Positions 17,894 to 24,255 of a DNA stretch of 58,774 nucleotides are shown one piece after another (position 1 is the stretch's first letter; each line of letters starts with the position of its first letter). The stretch spans positions 1-58,774 of the forward strand of contig CALVJQ010000008.1 of the NCBI GenBank assembly GCA_944332265.1, given 5' to 3'. The DNA is from an uncultured Bacilli bacterium (lineage in GTDB: Bacteria; Bacillota_I; Bacilli_A; RF39; UBA660). The position numbers and the translations under genes are program-made. The notes under the pieces are model-generated. The model did not search any database. It was not told the origin of the DNA and worked only from the letters and a program-made list of their open reading frames with translations.

Positions 17894-17963
17894 TCCTCCA
17901 TACAAAAAAATATGGAGGATTATCCTTTGTTATAATCTTAATTTTACTTTTTAAAATAATCCT
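17894..17963 (-). promoter_or_regulatory. Hairpin hiding the glmS ribosome binding site, with a competing pairing
   Basis: Minus-strand TCCTCCATA (17911-17919) pairs fully with TATGGAGGA (17894-17902) across an eight-base T-rich loop. The pairing covers the GGAGG of glmS. Just upstream, ATAATCCT (17916-17923) overlaps that first arm and can pair instead with AGGATTAT (17956-17963), which would free the ribosome site. Both pairings are visible. That they form a switch is inference. Confidence 0.5.
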
Positions 17964-18065
17964 AACGCATCCATTAATACGTAGTAATATCCGCCGAATC
18001 TTTCGATAATTACTAACCTCGTCATCCCTTAGGACCTGGCGCTAACTTACTCTTACACTCCTTTA
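17924..18065 (-). ncRNA. glmS ribozyme (GlcN6P-activated self-cleaving riboswitch)
   Basis: The core motifs are present in order on the minus strand: TTAGCGCCAGG (cleavage expected between 18043 and 18042, before GCGCC), a short P2 (GTCC/GGAT), GACGAGG, ATCGA and TTCGGCGGAT. TAGTAAT/ATTACTA forms P3, and 3' helices follow. It lies between the promoter and glmS, exactly as in Bacillus. Cleavage on binding glucosamine 6-phosphate destabilises the mRNA. Confidence 0.95.
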
Positions 18066-18135: not shown

Positions 18136-18654
18136 TTAATTTACTTTTTCCCCAGTATATATTTTTAAAGTCCTTAATATCGAATCAACACTGTCTAAGA
18201 CAATATCATAACACTCACTATCAGCTTCATAATAAACTACAATTAACTTATTATCTTTCTTATAAATATTAACTAAAGCTTGTTTCATATCCTTTTCATA
18301 TAAATAAGAAAAAGACTCATACATATCAGTGGGATTACTCATTCTATTAATCAATTTATAATCTATATTTTGTTTTTCTATACTATCAATAACATCAACA
18401 ATAAGATCATTTAATGAAATATCCATATACGTTTTATCTAACTCTTTACATTGGATATGCAATATACTATTAGTTTTCTTATGTTTTAATTTCAATTCAT
18501 TAGTATCATTTACTACTTTCCAAGTACTATCATATTCTACCTTAAAATTATTATCAGTATAAGAATTTAAAGTTACTCTAAAAGCATATGATAAACCAAA
18601 AGTAAGAATAATACTAACAACAATTATTATTAATAACCATTTATTCTTCTTCAT
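18136..18654 (-). CDS. Membrane-anchored PsbP-like protein
   Basis: 172 residues. An N-terminal helix (about 5-24) serves as signal anchor or uncleaved signal. An outside domain follows (NNFKVEYDSTWKV ... LHIQCKEL ... ALVNIYKKDNKLIVVYY) with the beta pattern of PsbP/Mog1-like domains, small sandwich folds common in secreted bacterial proteins. The assignment is by pattern only. GGAG lies nine bases upstream. It starts four bases after the stop of the trypsin-like gene and is the last member of the envelope operon that begins at 21931. It may be an accessory or inhibitor subunit. Confidence 0.6.
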   Translation of the reverse strand: MKKNKWLLIIIVVSIILTFGLSYAFRVTLNSYTDNNFKVEYDSTWKVVNDTNELKLKHKKTNSILHIQCKELDKTYMDISLNDLIVDVIDSIEKQNIDYKLINRMSNPTDMYESFSYLYEKDMKQALVNIYKKDNKLIVVYYEADSECYDIVLDSVDSILRTLKIYTGEKVN

Positions 18655-18657
18655 AAA

Positions 18658-20253
18658 TCAATTCTCCATAATCAGAATAATCAAATAATCTAAACTACTC
18701 TTAATAATAATTTTATATTTATTATTCTTATATATCTTTTTATAATTATCACTATATGTAAATTCATATCCATCATTAATTAAATTCTCCGTAAATGAAG
18801 AAACTAAATATATAGAATCTATTAAATTACTAGTATTATTTTCATATCTTAAACTAACTATTCCATCTACATAAGATGCTTTAATTAAAGGCAAAGTAAT
18901 CTCATTACCCAAATTACCTATTTTACGATAATCATTCCATACTTCATTAGCTATTTTATTATACTTTTTTTCTTCTTCAAACTCTGTATAATAATCTTGT
19001 TTATAAGTTTCTAATAATGTATAAGATATTTTACTATAATCTTGATTATTTAAAATATCCTGTAATTCTTTTAAATAATCTGTACTATTAGCATAAGATA
19101 ACTCAGAATTAGTTTTATCACCAACATTAAACCCAACAACTTGACCTTCCTCGTTAAATAAAGCCCCACCTACATCACTATTAGATAATAAAAATAAATT
19201 ACTTAATTTACCATTATTTAAAGAAATAAAAGAACCATAACTAATTTGAAAACCATTATTATTCTTACTATTTATCATAAATAATTTATCATCTAATTCT
19301 AACTTAGTAGAAGACCCAATTGATACTCCCTTACCACTATTTTTATCTATTTTTAAGACAACTACATCATAATCAATCTGTGCTGCTACTACTCCTAAAA
19401 TATCATAAGTATTGCCCTTTGCATCATTAACATAGATATATTCACTATTAGTTAACATTTGTAAAAATAAAGACCAAGTAGTAACTATTATTCCTTCTCT
19501 TAAATAAAATCCACTACCATAACTATTTTGTCCCCCATCGTTCATTCCTGTTATTTGAACAACACTATCTATATTATTTTGATATATACTATTTAATAAA
19601 TTAGTACTTACAGTTACATTTCCTTTACCAGATAAAGATACTTTATTATATGTTCCTCCAATATATTCACCCTTATCTTCTCTTTTTGATACCTCGCTAA
19701 AATAACTTTCTAAATCATCATCAACTGTTATCCAAGGATAATAAACTCCATACTTACCATTATCTTCTTTTAACCAAAAAGACAAAAAGATATCTTTTTC
19801 TTCCTTATCAACCAAAGCATCACTTATATAAACAAAAGAAATAATATCGTTTTCATTAAATTTAACTGTTCTAATATCTTTTATATAATCGGCTTCAATT
19901 TTCATCTCATTTATAACATCCAAATACATTTTTATAAAAAGATTTCCACTTAAAGTCTCAGCCCCATCATCATTACTATAATACATATATTTAGTAAATT
20001 CTTGTCTTTTATCCGTCATACTATCTGAAGATAAAGATATTTTTACAACTTCTTTAACTAACTTATTAACTTCTTCATTATTAACTTCTTCACTTTTAAA
20101 ACCTGGTGTTTCAATATTATAGGTTTTATTTAAATTTTCACTAAGTTGTTTAGCTTGACTATCAACTGATATCTTATTTATATCTATATTAAAAGCTTTA
20201 ACATTACTAAAGATAATAAAACTTAATAATAAACCAAATAATATCTTCTTCAT
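18658..20253 (-). CDS. Secreted trypsin-like protein with a degraded catalytic triad
   Basis: 531 residues with a cleavable-looking signal peptide (1-20, VKA). An N-terminal region (about 25-200) of unknown fold precedes a HtrA/trypsin-like domain (about 222-395). In it, GIIVTTWSLF occupies the place of GxVVTNAHVV, so Ser261 replaces the His. YDVVVLKID keeps the Asp (296). SDVGGALFN stands where GNSGGPL should be, so Val361 replaces the nucleophile. The domain should therefore bind peptide rather than cut it. A C-terminal domain (410-531) resembles the PsbP-like neighbour in style. RBS AGGAGGTG. It lies between the metallopeptidase and the PsbP-like gene in one operon. Confidence 0.72.
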   Translation of the reverse strand: MKKILFGLLLSFIIFSNVKAFNIDINKISVDSQAKQLSENLNKTYNIETPGFKSEEVNNEEVNKLVKEVVKISLSSDSMTDKRQEFTKYMYYSNDDGAETLSGNLFIKMYLDVINEMKIEADYIKDIRTVKFNENDIISFVYISDALVDKEEKDIFLSFWLKEDNGKYGVYYPWITVDDDLESYFSEVSKREDKGEYIGGTYNKVSLSGKGNVTVSTNLLNSIYQNNIDSVVQITGMNDGGQNSYGSGFYLREGIIVTTWSLFLQMLTNSEYIYVNDAKGNTYDILGVVAAQIDYDVVVLKIDKNSGKGVSIGSSTKLELDDKLFMINSKNNNGFQISYGSFISLNNGKLSNLFLLSNSDVGGALFNEEGQVVGFNVGDKTNSELSYANSTDYLKELQDILNNQDYSKISYTLLETYKQDYYTEFEEEKKYNKIANEVWNDYRKIGNLGNEITLPLIKASYVDGIVSLRYENNTSNLIDSIYLVSSFTENLINDGYEFTYSDNYKKIYKNNKYKIIIKSSLDYLIILIMEN

Positions 20254-20263
20254 AAAACACCTC

Positions 20264-21931
20264 CTATAATTTACTAATTAATACTTTAACTATATAACTA
20301 CTTGCTGGTTTAGCTAAATCACCATTTATATAAACATCATGAAATGCTTCAGCTATCGTTTCATCATATATATAATTACCATTACTATCTTTAGCCATTG
20401 CATAACCAGATATACTACTTCTAAAATCTTCAAAAGAATCATTAGCATATAATTTAGAATATTCATCATAAGCTTCTCGTAAAAGATTATAACTAAAATT
20501 TCCTACATTAAAATCATTATATACTTCATAAAGAATACTTGCTTGGGAAGATTTAACATAATTTAATCTATCAGAATTATAATAATTCAGTAAAGCAACA
20601 TATGATAAATAATGCCCAAATTCATGTGCAACTGTACTACTACGACTAGCATTTGGTGGAAAATATCCACTTTTAGATGCATATGAAACAGAACCTTTTA
20701 ACTTCGAATTATTTAAAAAATATTTAGCATTCAATAATATTTGCGTTTTTATTCCTACTGGATAACCCGAATTAGTTTTACTAGTTGCAAATGAAAATAC
20801 TGGCATAAAAGCCGCAATAAAAGTCGTATCTTCTCCTACATTAGCTAAAGTCAAATTAGTTAAATAATTTCTTGCTTCAGGATAATTATTATAAATAAAT
20901 TTAACTACATCCCTTAATTCTAAAGCAAAATCATAATCCATTTCACATAAATTAACTGCAACTATCCCATAGTTATTAATTATTTCATTTTCTATCTTTG
21001 TAACATTTGCAGGACAATTATCCTTCTGTTTTAAACTATCAGCTGAGATAAGCTTATAAACATCATCTTCAGATTTTAAAGTTAACTGCTTTATATACTG
21101 ATTATCATAAACTATTGAAGTTATTCCTTCACCACTAGAGCCCCCAACTTGTCCCGATTTAGATACTCCATTATATTTAGACATCTCTTCATCCATAACT
21201 GGATCTTCACTATTAGCAATTATCTCATTGTTATTTTCATCTTCACTAAAATAATAAGTTTCTCTTGTTGCACTATATAAAGTCCATAAAGCAAAAACCC
21301 ATAAACATATTACTACACAATAGGCAAATATATTAAAACCACTCATACCTTTTTTAGAGGCTTTATAATTAGCTTTACTAGATTTATCTATTATTTTATC
21401 ATCTTTTGTTATACTAAATAAACTAGTTGTTTTCTTAACCTCTCTAACATCATTATTTCCAATTTTTACATTAGCTGAAGTTGTAAAAAATCGCCCACTA
21501 CTAACATTTGATTCATTTTCAATTACTTTTTTATTTTGATTAATTCCTGTATTAGTATCAACATTTTTAAATAAATCTTGATTACTATATATATTAACTG
21601 GTTTCTTTTTATTATTAAAAGTAAGACCTTCAAAAGGATTACTACTTACTAAATCACTTACCTTTTCCTTAGCTTCTTTATAATCAGCAATACTATTATA
21701 ATCTTTTAGTAAAATCTCTTTTTTCTTATTTTTCTTCTTTAAACTAATTATATTTCCTTTACTAATTGTTCCTCCTACTAATGAAGACTGATCTTGTAAA
21801 TTAATTTTACTCTTAGTTCCCTTTAAAGATTTAACCCCCTTAGTTGTTTTTCTCTCAACTAAAGAAGCACCACATCGAGGGCAGATAGATAATTTGCCTT
21901 TTATTTCATAATGACACTTAGGACAAATCAT
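20264..21931 (-). CDS. Membrane zinc metallopeptidase with cytosolic zinc ribbon
   Basis: 555 residues from the ATG at 21931, which has GGAGGTGG upstream. The longer frame begins before that site. A CxxC...CxxC zinc ribbon is at 3-20. A long basic, low-complexity segment follows, then one TM helix at about 199-220 and an extracellular domain with HEFGH (436-440). Glu528 in AEAFHDV is a plausible third zinc ligand. The arrangement puts the ribbon inside the cell and the protease outside. It leads a three-gene operon with the inactive trypsin-like protein and the PsbP-like protein, so these probably work together at the envelope. The exact peptidase family is not recognised. Confidence 0.75.
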   Translation of the reverse strand: MICPKCHYEIKGKLSICPRCGASLVERKTTKGVKSLKGTKSKINLQDQSSLVGGTISKGNIISLKKKNKKKEILLKDYNSIADYKEAKEKVSDLVSSNPFEGLTFNNKKKPVNIYSNQDLFKNVDTNTGINQNKKVIENESNVSSGRFFTTSANVKIGNNDVREVKKTTSLFSITKDDKIIDKSSKANYKASKKGMSGFNIFAYCVVICLWVFALWTLYSATRETYYFSEDENNNEIIANSEDPVMDEEMSKYNGVSKSGQVGGSSGEGITSIVYDNQYIKQLTLKSEDDVYKLISADSLKQKDNCPANVTKIENEIINNYGIVAVNLCEMDYDFALELRDVVKFIYNNYPEARNYLTNLTLANVGEDTTFIAAFMPVFSFATSKTNSGYPVGIKTQILLNAKYFLNNSKLKGSVSYASKSGYFPPNASRSSTVAHEFGHYLSYVALLNYYNSDRLNYVKSSQASILYEVYNDFNVGNFSYNLLREAYDEYSKLYANDSFEDFRSSISGYAMAKDSNGNYIYDETIAEAFHDVYINGDLAKPASSYIVKVLISKL

Positions 21932-21964
21932 TTTTCCACCTCCATATCTTAATTTATTATAGCA

Positions 21965-21996
21965 CAAAAAAAGGACACTATAATAGTCCTTTTTTA
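21965..21996 (-). terminator. Terminator of ftsK
   Basis: The stem AAGGAC/GTCCTT (21971-21976 with 21986-21991) is extended by A-T pairs and followed on the minus strand by a T run. It separates ftsK from the metallopeptidase operon. Confidence 0.85.
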
Positions 21997-24255
21997 TTAT
22001 TTATCTTCTTTACTTTGTTCCCCTTGACCAACTAAAACTTCTCTAGGTTTAGAGCCATTCTGAGGGCCTATTATTCCTCTTTCTTCCAATAAATCAATTA
22101 TTCGAGCTGCTCTATTATATCCAAGTCTAAATCTTCTTTGAATTAAAGAAGCACTTATTTTACCTGTCTCAACAGCAAAAGCATATATTTCATCATACAT
22201 TGGATCATCAAAAGATTCTTTGTCTCCTGATACAGGATTATGTTCTTCCCTTATTGCTTGTTCAAGAGAATCATCATATGAAACCTTCTGTTGACCACAA
22301 ACATAATCTATAACTCTTTGAATTTCATCATCTGTAATAAAGCATCCTTGAATACGACGTGGATTATTTTCTCCCATCGGTAAATAAAGCATATCACCTT
22401 TACCTAATAATTTTTCAGCTCCCGAATGATCTAATATCGTACGCGAATCAATCTGCGAAGCTACTGCAAAAGATATACGTGATGGAATATTGGCTTTTAC
22501 AACTCCTGTAATTACATCAGTACTTGGTCTTTGAGTTGCTACGATTAAATGAATTCCCGCTGCACGAGCCATTTGCGTAATACGCATAATTGAATCTTCT
22601 ACTTCCTTAGAAGCAACAAGCATTAAATCAGCTAACTCATCAATAATAACAACTAAGTAGAACATTTTTTCTTTATTAAATGTTGGATCTTTTTCTTTTT
22701 CTCTTTCAACCCAATCATTATAAGTTCCGATATTTTTTACTCCAACTTCACTAAAAGTTTCATATCTGTCTTCCATCATTGCTACAACCTTTTGTAAAGC
22801 AACATTAGCTTTCTTAGGATCAGTAACAACAGGCCACAACAAATGTGGTACCCCATTATAATTAGATAATTCTACTTTCTTAGGGTCAACTAAAACCAAC
22901 TTCACTTCTTCTGGCCTATAACGCATTAAAATTGAAGCAATAAACGAATTAATACACACTGATTTACCACTACCAGTTGAACCACCAACTAATAAGTGTG
23001 GCATTTTAGCAATATCAGCAGTTTGAACTTTCCCCATCAAATCTTTTCCCAAAGAAACCAATATTTTAGCTTTTTCTTGATCTTTTGGAATATTTCCTAA
23101 AACTTCTCTAATTTTTACTGGATTAATCGTTGGATTAGGAATTTCTACACCAACTGTGCTTTTACCTGGAATTGGCGCTTCAATACGAACATCTTTAGCA
23201 GCTAAAGCCAAGGCAATTTCCTTATTAATACTTAAAATTCGACTTACTTTAGTTCCACTAGGTATTGCTAACTCATATTGCGTTACAGCTGGCCCAACAT
23301 GAATTTCAACAACTGTTGCTCTTATTTGAAAATCATTTAAAACTCTTTCTAATATTATTTTATTACTTTTAGTAAAATCATTATTAGTTTTACTATTCCT
23401 AGGAACTTCATCTAAAATATTTATACTTGGTAAAGTATATATTCCTCTTACTGTTGCAACAGACAAAGGTTTTTCAATAACTTCATTACTTTCACTATTT
23501 AAATTAGAAGAAATCATAACAGGTGAAACCTCAGTTTGATAATTCTCCTGTGGTAACGGCTCTTTTCCTATTTCTCCTAAAGAAATAACTTCATTACCCT
23601 CATCATCTAATTCTTCCTCTTCTTCTAACTCCGCTCTTCTTTCTTCTCTTAAAGCCTTAGCTTCAGAATATTTATCTTTTAATTTAATAAACATATCTCC
23701 TAAATTAAGATCAAATAACATAACAATTGCTAAAATAGTTAAAGCTACTAAAACAACAATTGTTCCACCTTTACTAAATAGACTTGCAAAAGCATAAGAA
23801 CATCCAGCACCAATAATTCCTCCACCTATATTAATACTCTTTTGACCACTTAATAAAGCACTCGATTCATCACTCATTGTTCCTATACGACTGCGATAAT
23901 TACTTAAAGTAGCATCAACAATATCTTCAGGTTCATAATTATTGATAAAACCAAAGTGAGCTGTTATTAAAACTACGAGAATTAAAATATATAATCCCAA
24001 TAATTTAGAATTAAAGAAATTAGGTAACTTTCTTTTTATAATCATAAATAAACCCATAAATAATAATATTAATAAAATTGTAAACCACCATTCGCCAACT
24101 AAAAACATAGCAAACTTTTTAATAAAAGTTCCTACTATTCCAAATTTACCTAATCCTACAATTCCCATTAAAATTAAAATTATACCAATAAGTTCAGGAC
24201 TATAGTTAAATTCAGTCTTTTCTTGTTTCTTAGATGTTTTTCTTTTTTTTGCCAT
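21997..24255 (-). CDS. ftsK: DNA translocase FtsK/SpoIIIE
   Basis: Pumps chromosome ends through the closing septum. 752 residues, with four or more N-terminal TM helices (about 22-185), an acidic linker, and the motor with Walker A GGSTGSGKSVCINS and Walker B VVIIDELADL. A C-terminal winged-helix gamma domain (SASLIQRRFRLGYNRAARIIDLLEERG) reads KOPS/SRS-type DNA signals. The length is close to B. subtilis SpoIIIE/SftA-class proteins (about 790-950). GGTGAG precedes the ATG. It is monocistronic, with a terminator right after it. Confidence 0.97.
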   Translation of the reverse strand: MAKKRKTSKKQEKTEFNYSPELIGIILILMGIVGLGKFGIVGTFIKKFAMFLVGEWWFTILLILLFMGLFMIIKRKLPNFFNSKLLGLYILILVVLITAHFGFINNYEPEDIVDATLSNYRSRIGTMSDESSALLSGQKSINIGGGIIGAGCSYAFASLFSKGGTIVVLVALTILAIVMLFDLNLGDMFIKLKDKYSEAKALREERRAELEEEEELDDEGNEVISLGEIGKEPLPQENYQTEVSPVMISSNLNSESNEVIEKPLSVATVRGIYTLPSINILDEVPRNSKTNNDFTKSNKIILERVLNDFQIRATVVEIHVGPAVTQYELAIPSGTKVSRILSINKEIALALAAKDVRIEAPIPGKSTVGVEIPNPTINPVKIREVLGNIPKDQEKAKILVSLGKDLMGKVQTADIAKMPHLLVGGSTGSGKSVCINSFIASILMRYRPEEVKLVLVDPKKVELSNYNGVPHLLWPVVTDPKKANVALQKVVAMMEDRYETFSEVGVKNIGTYNDWVEREKEKDPTFNKEKMFYLVVIIDELADLMLVASKEVEDSIMRITQMARAAGIHLIVATQRPSTDVITGVVKANIPSRISFAVASQIDSRTILDHSGAEKLLGKGDMLYLPMGENNPRRIQGCFITDDEIQRVIDYVCGQQKVSYDDSLEQAIREEHNPVSGDKESFDDPMYDEIYAFAVETGKISASLIQRRFRLGYNRAARIIDLLEERGIIGPQNGSKPREVLVGQGEQSKEDK

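Follow-up and report, generated by a model that had tools for sequence, protein, structure and literature searches.

A conserved three-gene envelope locus combining a predicted membrane metallopeptidase with a trypsin-fold pseudoprotease in uncultured gut Bacilli

The DNA analysed here, called the window, is a stretch of 58,774 nucleotides from an uncultured Bacilli bacterium. It carries three consecutive genes coding for a predicted membrane metallopeptidase (MP), a secreted protein with a trypsin fold (TRYP) and a membrane-anchored protein with a predicted PsbP fold (PSBP) (Table 1). The intergenic gaps are 10 bp between MP and TRYP and 3-4 bp between TRYP and PSBP, and such short gaps are consistent with the location of all three genes on one transcript. 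The trio is flanked by an ftsK-like gene and by glmS, which has its own promoter-like site and ribozyme. The first-pass annotation placed the 5' limit of MP at position 21967. This was not borne out: the ATG start lies at 21931 with a GGAGG ribosome-binding site ahead of it, and the TTG at 21967 falls inside a hairpin that resembles a terminator and follows the ftsK-like gene upstream of MP. The hairpin was identified by eye; its 9-nt loop exceeds the limits of the scan used. Transmembrane (TM) segments and signal peptides of the three proteins were assigned by hydropathy and reading rather than with a trained predictor.

Table 1. Features of the MP-TRYP-PSBP locus in the window
Feature	Position	Strand	Remarks
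MP, predicted membrane metallopeptidase gene	20264..21931	-	555 aa; zinc ribbon, basic linker, one TM, M34-like gluzincin domain (model)
Zinc ribbon of MP (C3, C6, C17, C20)	21872..21925	-	Cys in 53/57 MPs at each position
TM segment of MP (about residues 201-223)	21263..21331	-	hydropathy
HEFGH zinc-binding motif of MP (residues 436-440)	20612..20626	-	HExGH invariant in 57/57 MPs
ETIAEAFHD motif of MP, presumed third zinc ligand E528	20336..20362	-	conserved in MP alignment
TRYP, secreted pseudotrypsin gene	18658..20253	-	531 aa; signal peptide, N-terminal domain, trypsin fold, C-terminal domain
Trypsin-fold domain of TRYP	19132..19518	-	Pfam Trypsin_2 above cut-off
Catalytic-His position of TRYP, S261	19471..19473	-	within VTTWS; S/N/D/T/K/E in relatives, one H
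Catalytic-Ser position of TRYP, V361	19171..19173	-	within SDVGG; relatives mostly Q/V/E
C-terminal domain of TRYP	18661..19041	-	best conserved part; R469, N472, L491 invariant
PSBP, TM-anchored PsbP-fold protein gene (fold from model)	18136..18654	-	172 aa
Terminator-like hairpin, ftsK-like gene/MP interval	21964..21995	-	AAAGGAC-loop-GTCCTTT and T run; read by eye
ftsK-like gene	21997-24255		borders MP side of trio
glmS ribozyme	17908-18054	-	RF00234, 66.1 bits; precedes glmS
Promoter-like site of glmS	18115-18086	-	separate from trio

The TM segment of MP is preceded by seven K/R residues and followed by nine D/E residues. Since the positive charge lies before the segment and the negative charge after it, the N-terminus is predicted to be inside. 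Hydropathy and charge together suggest a protein with a single TM, a cytosolic zinc ribbon and a peptidase domain outside the cell. The putative zinc site comprises H436-E437-x-x-H440 and the distal E528, which is presumed from the motif and the fold to be a zinc ligand. Residues E524, T525, A527, E528 and D532 are invariant in all 57 aligned MPs. The membrane HExxH peptidase with a cytosolic zinc ribbon that had been noticed in the first-pass annotation was recovered in all these elements. An AlphaFold model of the MP ectodomain, built with 52 sequences, reached a pLDDT of 95.6 and a pTM of 0.93. In structural alignments with this model, the best M34 catalytic domain gave a Z of 12.2 (rmsd 3.8 over 188 residues; identity at most 18%), PPEP gave 7.6, and other peptidases gave no more than 6.4. 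Foldseek also ranked M34 peptidases at the top, but not significantly (E about 0.1). No Pfam family matches the peptidase domain of the window MP, and among the matches listed for 52 MP members the hits were weak and scattered. The domain has no sequence relative in the PDB, where a profile search yielded nothing useful. Because of the model alignment and the invariant HExGH and ETxAE motifs, we consider MP to be a gluzincin with an M34-like fold, whose predicted kinship to M34 lies in the fold; judging from its residues and fold, it is probably an active peptidase.

Two further features of the MPs were seen. The cysteines C306 and C329 (window 21016-20945) are each found in 47 of the 57 MPs, with other residues, mostly Y and K, in the remaining ten; this suggests that they form a disulphide within the outside domain. 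A long Pro-Thr repeat separates the TM from the peptidase domain in some MPs of the genus (L027, L028, L029, L036).

TRYP matches the Pfam Trypsin_2 model with 38.8 bits at a cut-off of 27.6; its best sequence matches in the PDB, HTRA1 and DegQ, are weak (E about 0.04). The replacement of the catalytic His by Ser and of the catalytic Ser by Val, claimed in the first-pass annotation, was confirmed as S261 and V361. The catalytic Asp is retained (D296), and the window TRYP contains neither His nor Cys. Homologues with an intact triad were looked for in an alignment of 56 rows, and none was found among the 54 rows readable at the catalytic columns. The only His at the His position occurs in a row with Glu in place of the catalytic Ser, and the three rows that do have this Ser all lack the catalytic His. 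Both positions vary freely (2.25 bits at 261 and 2.38 bits at 361). Their neighbours T258, W260 and G362 are nearly fixed, and the Gly after the Ser position is kept in 51 of 54 relatives. No PDZ domain was matched in TRYP by Pfam at E up to 10, and the C-terminal domain is more conserved than the trypsin part. Apparently, the TRYP family has retained the protease scaffold and dropped the catalytic chemistry. When the window is compared with its closest relative, dN/dS is 0.23 for TRYP, compared with 0.15 for both MP and glmS, so TRYP is under purifying selection. As a control, we read the same motifs in 12 HtrA paralogues of the window's bacterial family, one of which lies in the genome of the window itself. 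All of them keep the catalytic His and Ser (TNxHV, GNSGG). In the tree, all TRYPs split from the HtrAs at 100/100. The TRYP family is therefore a single group with one origin, apart from ordinary HtrAs, and TRYP itself, as its residues indicate, is a long-established pseudoprotease maintained by selection.

PSBP consists of an N-terminal TM followed by a domain modelled with a pLDDT of 90.4. A Foldseek search with the model returned PsbP and CyanoP at the top (E 4.4e-8, TM 0.71), and structural alignment gave a Z of 15.1 with an rmsd of 2.7 over 136 residues. Judging by the model, PSBP has a true PsbP fold. The sequence matches neither Pfam PsbP nor PsbP_2, its domain is covered by no other Pfam family either, and a PDB profile search with it yielded nothing useful. 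Thus, of the earlier description of a PsbP-like anchored protein, the fold and the anchor stand, although no PsbP sequence family matches. The label PF18933 was dropped, having no match to the gene in the window's genome. Outside the window's genus, PSBP is mostly about 540 aa long. In 37 loci PSBP is followed by a fourth gene, whose product usually has a zinc ribbon and one TM.

The three genes are conserved as a unit, as had been supposed. Of 51 loci taken from named genomes, 47 show TRYP as the gene after MP and 46 show PSBP next; one locus without the full order lies at a contig end. TRYP is present in 15 of 15 genomes of the window's genus, and the order MP-TRYP-PSBP is found in those genus loci that are long enough to show it. 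Across divergent lineages, the genes overlap or nearly touch, with short and long PSBP forms alike. The neighbourhoods differ. An ftsK-like gene flanks the trio in the window's genus, and a MoxR-DUF58-VWA-VWA-TPR set lies directly upstream of it in 11 loci (L035:528-5426 and ten others). LemA-like genes were seen by eye among the flanks in some loci. Another genus (L093, L112, L113, L114) has the conserved order gpr-spoIIP-small gene-400 aa gene-MP-TRYP-PSBP. At L092 and L116 the trio stands beside an rpsT-like gene, without gpr-spoIIP. Since the flanks change and the trio stays constant, we rejected general conserved synteny as the source of the linkage. Chance is excluded by the invariant zinc-site residues of the 57 MPs and by the order kept in 47 of 51 loci. 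Evolutionary distances in MP correlate with those in TRYP (0.85); however, vertical inheritance alone would also produce this. MP matches were confined to the window's own GTDB family when 346 genomes from the class and 392 from the phylum were sampled. RF39-type Bacilli are reported to be a mix of spore-forming and non-spore-forming species (PMC10868615). The germination protease GPR was not found in the window's genus, where the trio is present, and a role of the trio in sporulation only is thus unsupported.

The arrangement has exceptions. At L094, which belongs to the gpr-spoIIP genus, and at L095, from another genus, both zinc-site histidines of MP are lost (SELAK, GEMIS) and the trio is kept. 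Therefore, the trio can persist without an intact zinc site. In the divergent gpr-spoIIP genus, HETAH or HETGH is retained in 7 of 8 MPs. At L096, TRYP is accompanied by two small membrane proteins and MP is absent. In 14 loci a related MP without TRYP is followed by a zinc-ribbon protein of 58-66 aa and a P-type ATPase. Compared with L085 (11056-13677) and relatives, L082 (11055-12893) has a shorter ATPase without the DKTGT motif, so this ATPase looks like another pseudoenzyme. The earlier picture of an active protease with a pseudoprotease partner agrees with the zinc site kept in 57 MPs and with the family-wide loss of the triad. It is not universal, because two lineages have lost the zinc site and one TRYP stands without MP. 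With these exceptions, the pseudoenzyme is fixed and conserved next to a protease whose active site, judged by its residues, is intact.

We propose that the trio is an extracytoplasmic membrane-bound proteolytic complex in which TRYP serves as an adaptor or regulator of MP. We favour this reading tentatively, giving it somewhat less than an even chance, because the fold of TRYP is kept while its catalytic positions drift and because the zinc site of MP is kept in nearly all lineages. MP would be the catalytic subunit, a gluzincin-type zinc peptidase that a single TM tethers to the membrane, leaving the zinc ribbon and a long basic tail on the cytosolic side. TRYP would be exported and act as a non-catalytic partner, whose scaffold and conserved C-terminal domain may bind MP, hold the substrate, or both, and thereby control the timing of cleavage. 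PSBP could be a membrane-anchored accessory with a part in docking or assembling the complex, and the zinc ribbon may couple it to the cell interior. The physical complex, the peptidase activity, the role of TRYP and the coupling are what we infer; the direct support comes from the modelled folds of MP and PSBP, from the trypsin domain, zinc site and triad loss read in the residues, and from the observed gene order and purifying selection. In a bolder version, the trio would be a cross-class machine for regulated proteolysis: membrane metallopeptidases with an M34 fold, forming a new family, would depend on TRYP as their obligate regulatory subunit, with PSBP as the anchor and the zinc ribbon relaying the state across the membrane. 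We regard this version as doubtful.

Against a proteolytic complex stand the loss of the zinc histidines at L094 and L095, TRYP without MP at L096, and the 14 loci in which a related MP without TRYP lies beside a P-type ATPase. Because of exceptions such as lost zinc sites and an unaccompanied TRYP, the main rival is that the trio is chiefly a sensor or structural envelope complex, in which the protease folds are binding modules and the activity of MP is secondary or lineage-specific. The stronger conservation of the C-terminal domain of TRYP and the position of the trio behind gpr-spoIIP in one genus also speak for it, and pseudoproteases do serve as germination sensors in other systems (PMC6636752). 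Still, the zinc site is conserved in 57 MPs and in most of those of the divergent genus, and the window's genus keeps the trio despite the absence of GPR. On balance, we judge a sensor or structural role unlikely, though to be taken seriously.

The three may also be envelope proteins that belong to one regulon and act independently, expressed together without forming a complex, their linkage reflecting common regulation. The varying neighbourhoods, some with general envelope systems such as MoxR-VWA, would suit this, but the strict order of closely packed genes in divergent lineages, whatever the length of PSBP, makes it quite improbable. Substrates of PPEPs are sometimes encoded beside the PPEP. 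By analogy, TRYP, PSBP or both could be substrates of MP, whose predicted fold is related to PPEPs and which is encoded together with these secreted proteins. However, no Pro-Pro-rich stretch was seen in the window TRYP or PSBP, and the family-wide fixation of a dead trypsin fold would be left unexplained; we find this explanation hard to credit. The recent decay of an HtrA in this strain accounts for the missing residues only. We rejected it as having next to no probability, since all readable homologues lack the triad, the family has one origin, dN/dS is low and a separate intact HtrA is present in the same genome. Since the protease chemistry is lost in every known member of this conserved module, we consider it most likely that the dead protease TRYP is no broken gene but serves a working complex as its dedicated partner.

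The trio is a conserved three-gene envelope module of uncultured gut bacteria, and no description of it was found in the open-access literature. MP adds a new family of membrane peptidases that no Pfam model describes, and TRYP is a clear case in which a whole family has retained a protease fold and lost the chemistry. The small gene set would make the mechanism of the pairing testable, provided that the pairing is functional.

Several known systems resemble parts of the trio. M34 peptidases of the PPEP type are the best fold match to MP and share HExxH and a distal Glu with it. Beyond its sequence divergence, MP differs from them in being chromosomal and TM-anchored, in its zinc ribbon, and in its occurrence in gut commensals. 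PSBP matches the PsbP/CyanoP/Mog1/LpqN fold in the model over nearly the whole domain, but not as a sequence family. TRYP shares a trypsin-fold domain and an envelope location with HtrA/DegP (S1C) and differs from them in lacking the triad and a PDZ match and in having its own N- and C-terminal domains. In magnetosome biomineralisation, the trypsin-fold pseudoprotease MamO activates MamE-dependent proteolysis (PMC4794232). There, as suggested here by the genes, such a pseudoprotease is paired with an envelope protease. However, MamE is a serine protease of MamO's own fold, whereas MP is predicted to be an unrelated zinc peptidase, and MamO binds metal through a di-His motif, whereas the window TRYP has no His. 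In C. difficile spore germination, the pseudoproteases CspC and CspA act with CspB, the pseudoprotease being the signal receptor for the protease (PMC6636752). In one genus the trio follows gpr-spoIIP. The Csp proteins, however, have a subtilisin-like fold, and the window's genus is without GPR. In animals, the serine pseudoprotease iRhom controls the membrane-anchored zinc metallopeptidase ADAM17 (PMC13277793, PMC6451368), which is the same combination as that suggested here by the genes. iRhom, however, is a polytopic relative of the rhomboids, and ADAM17 belongs to another metallopeptidase family; we do not claim homology. Thus, if the pairing is functional, a bacterial metallopeptidase would be governed by a serine pseudoprotease, as iRhoms govern ADAM17.
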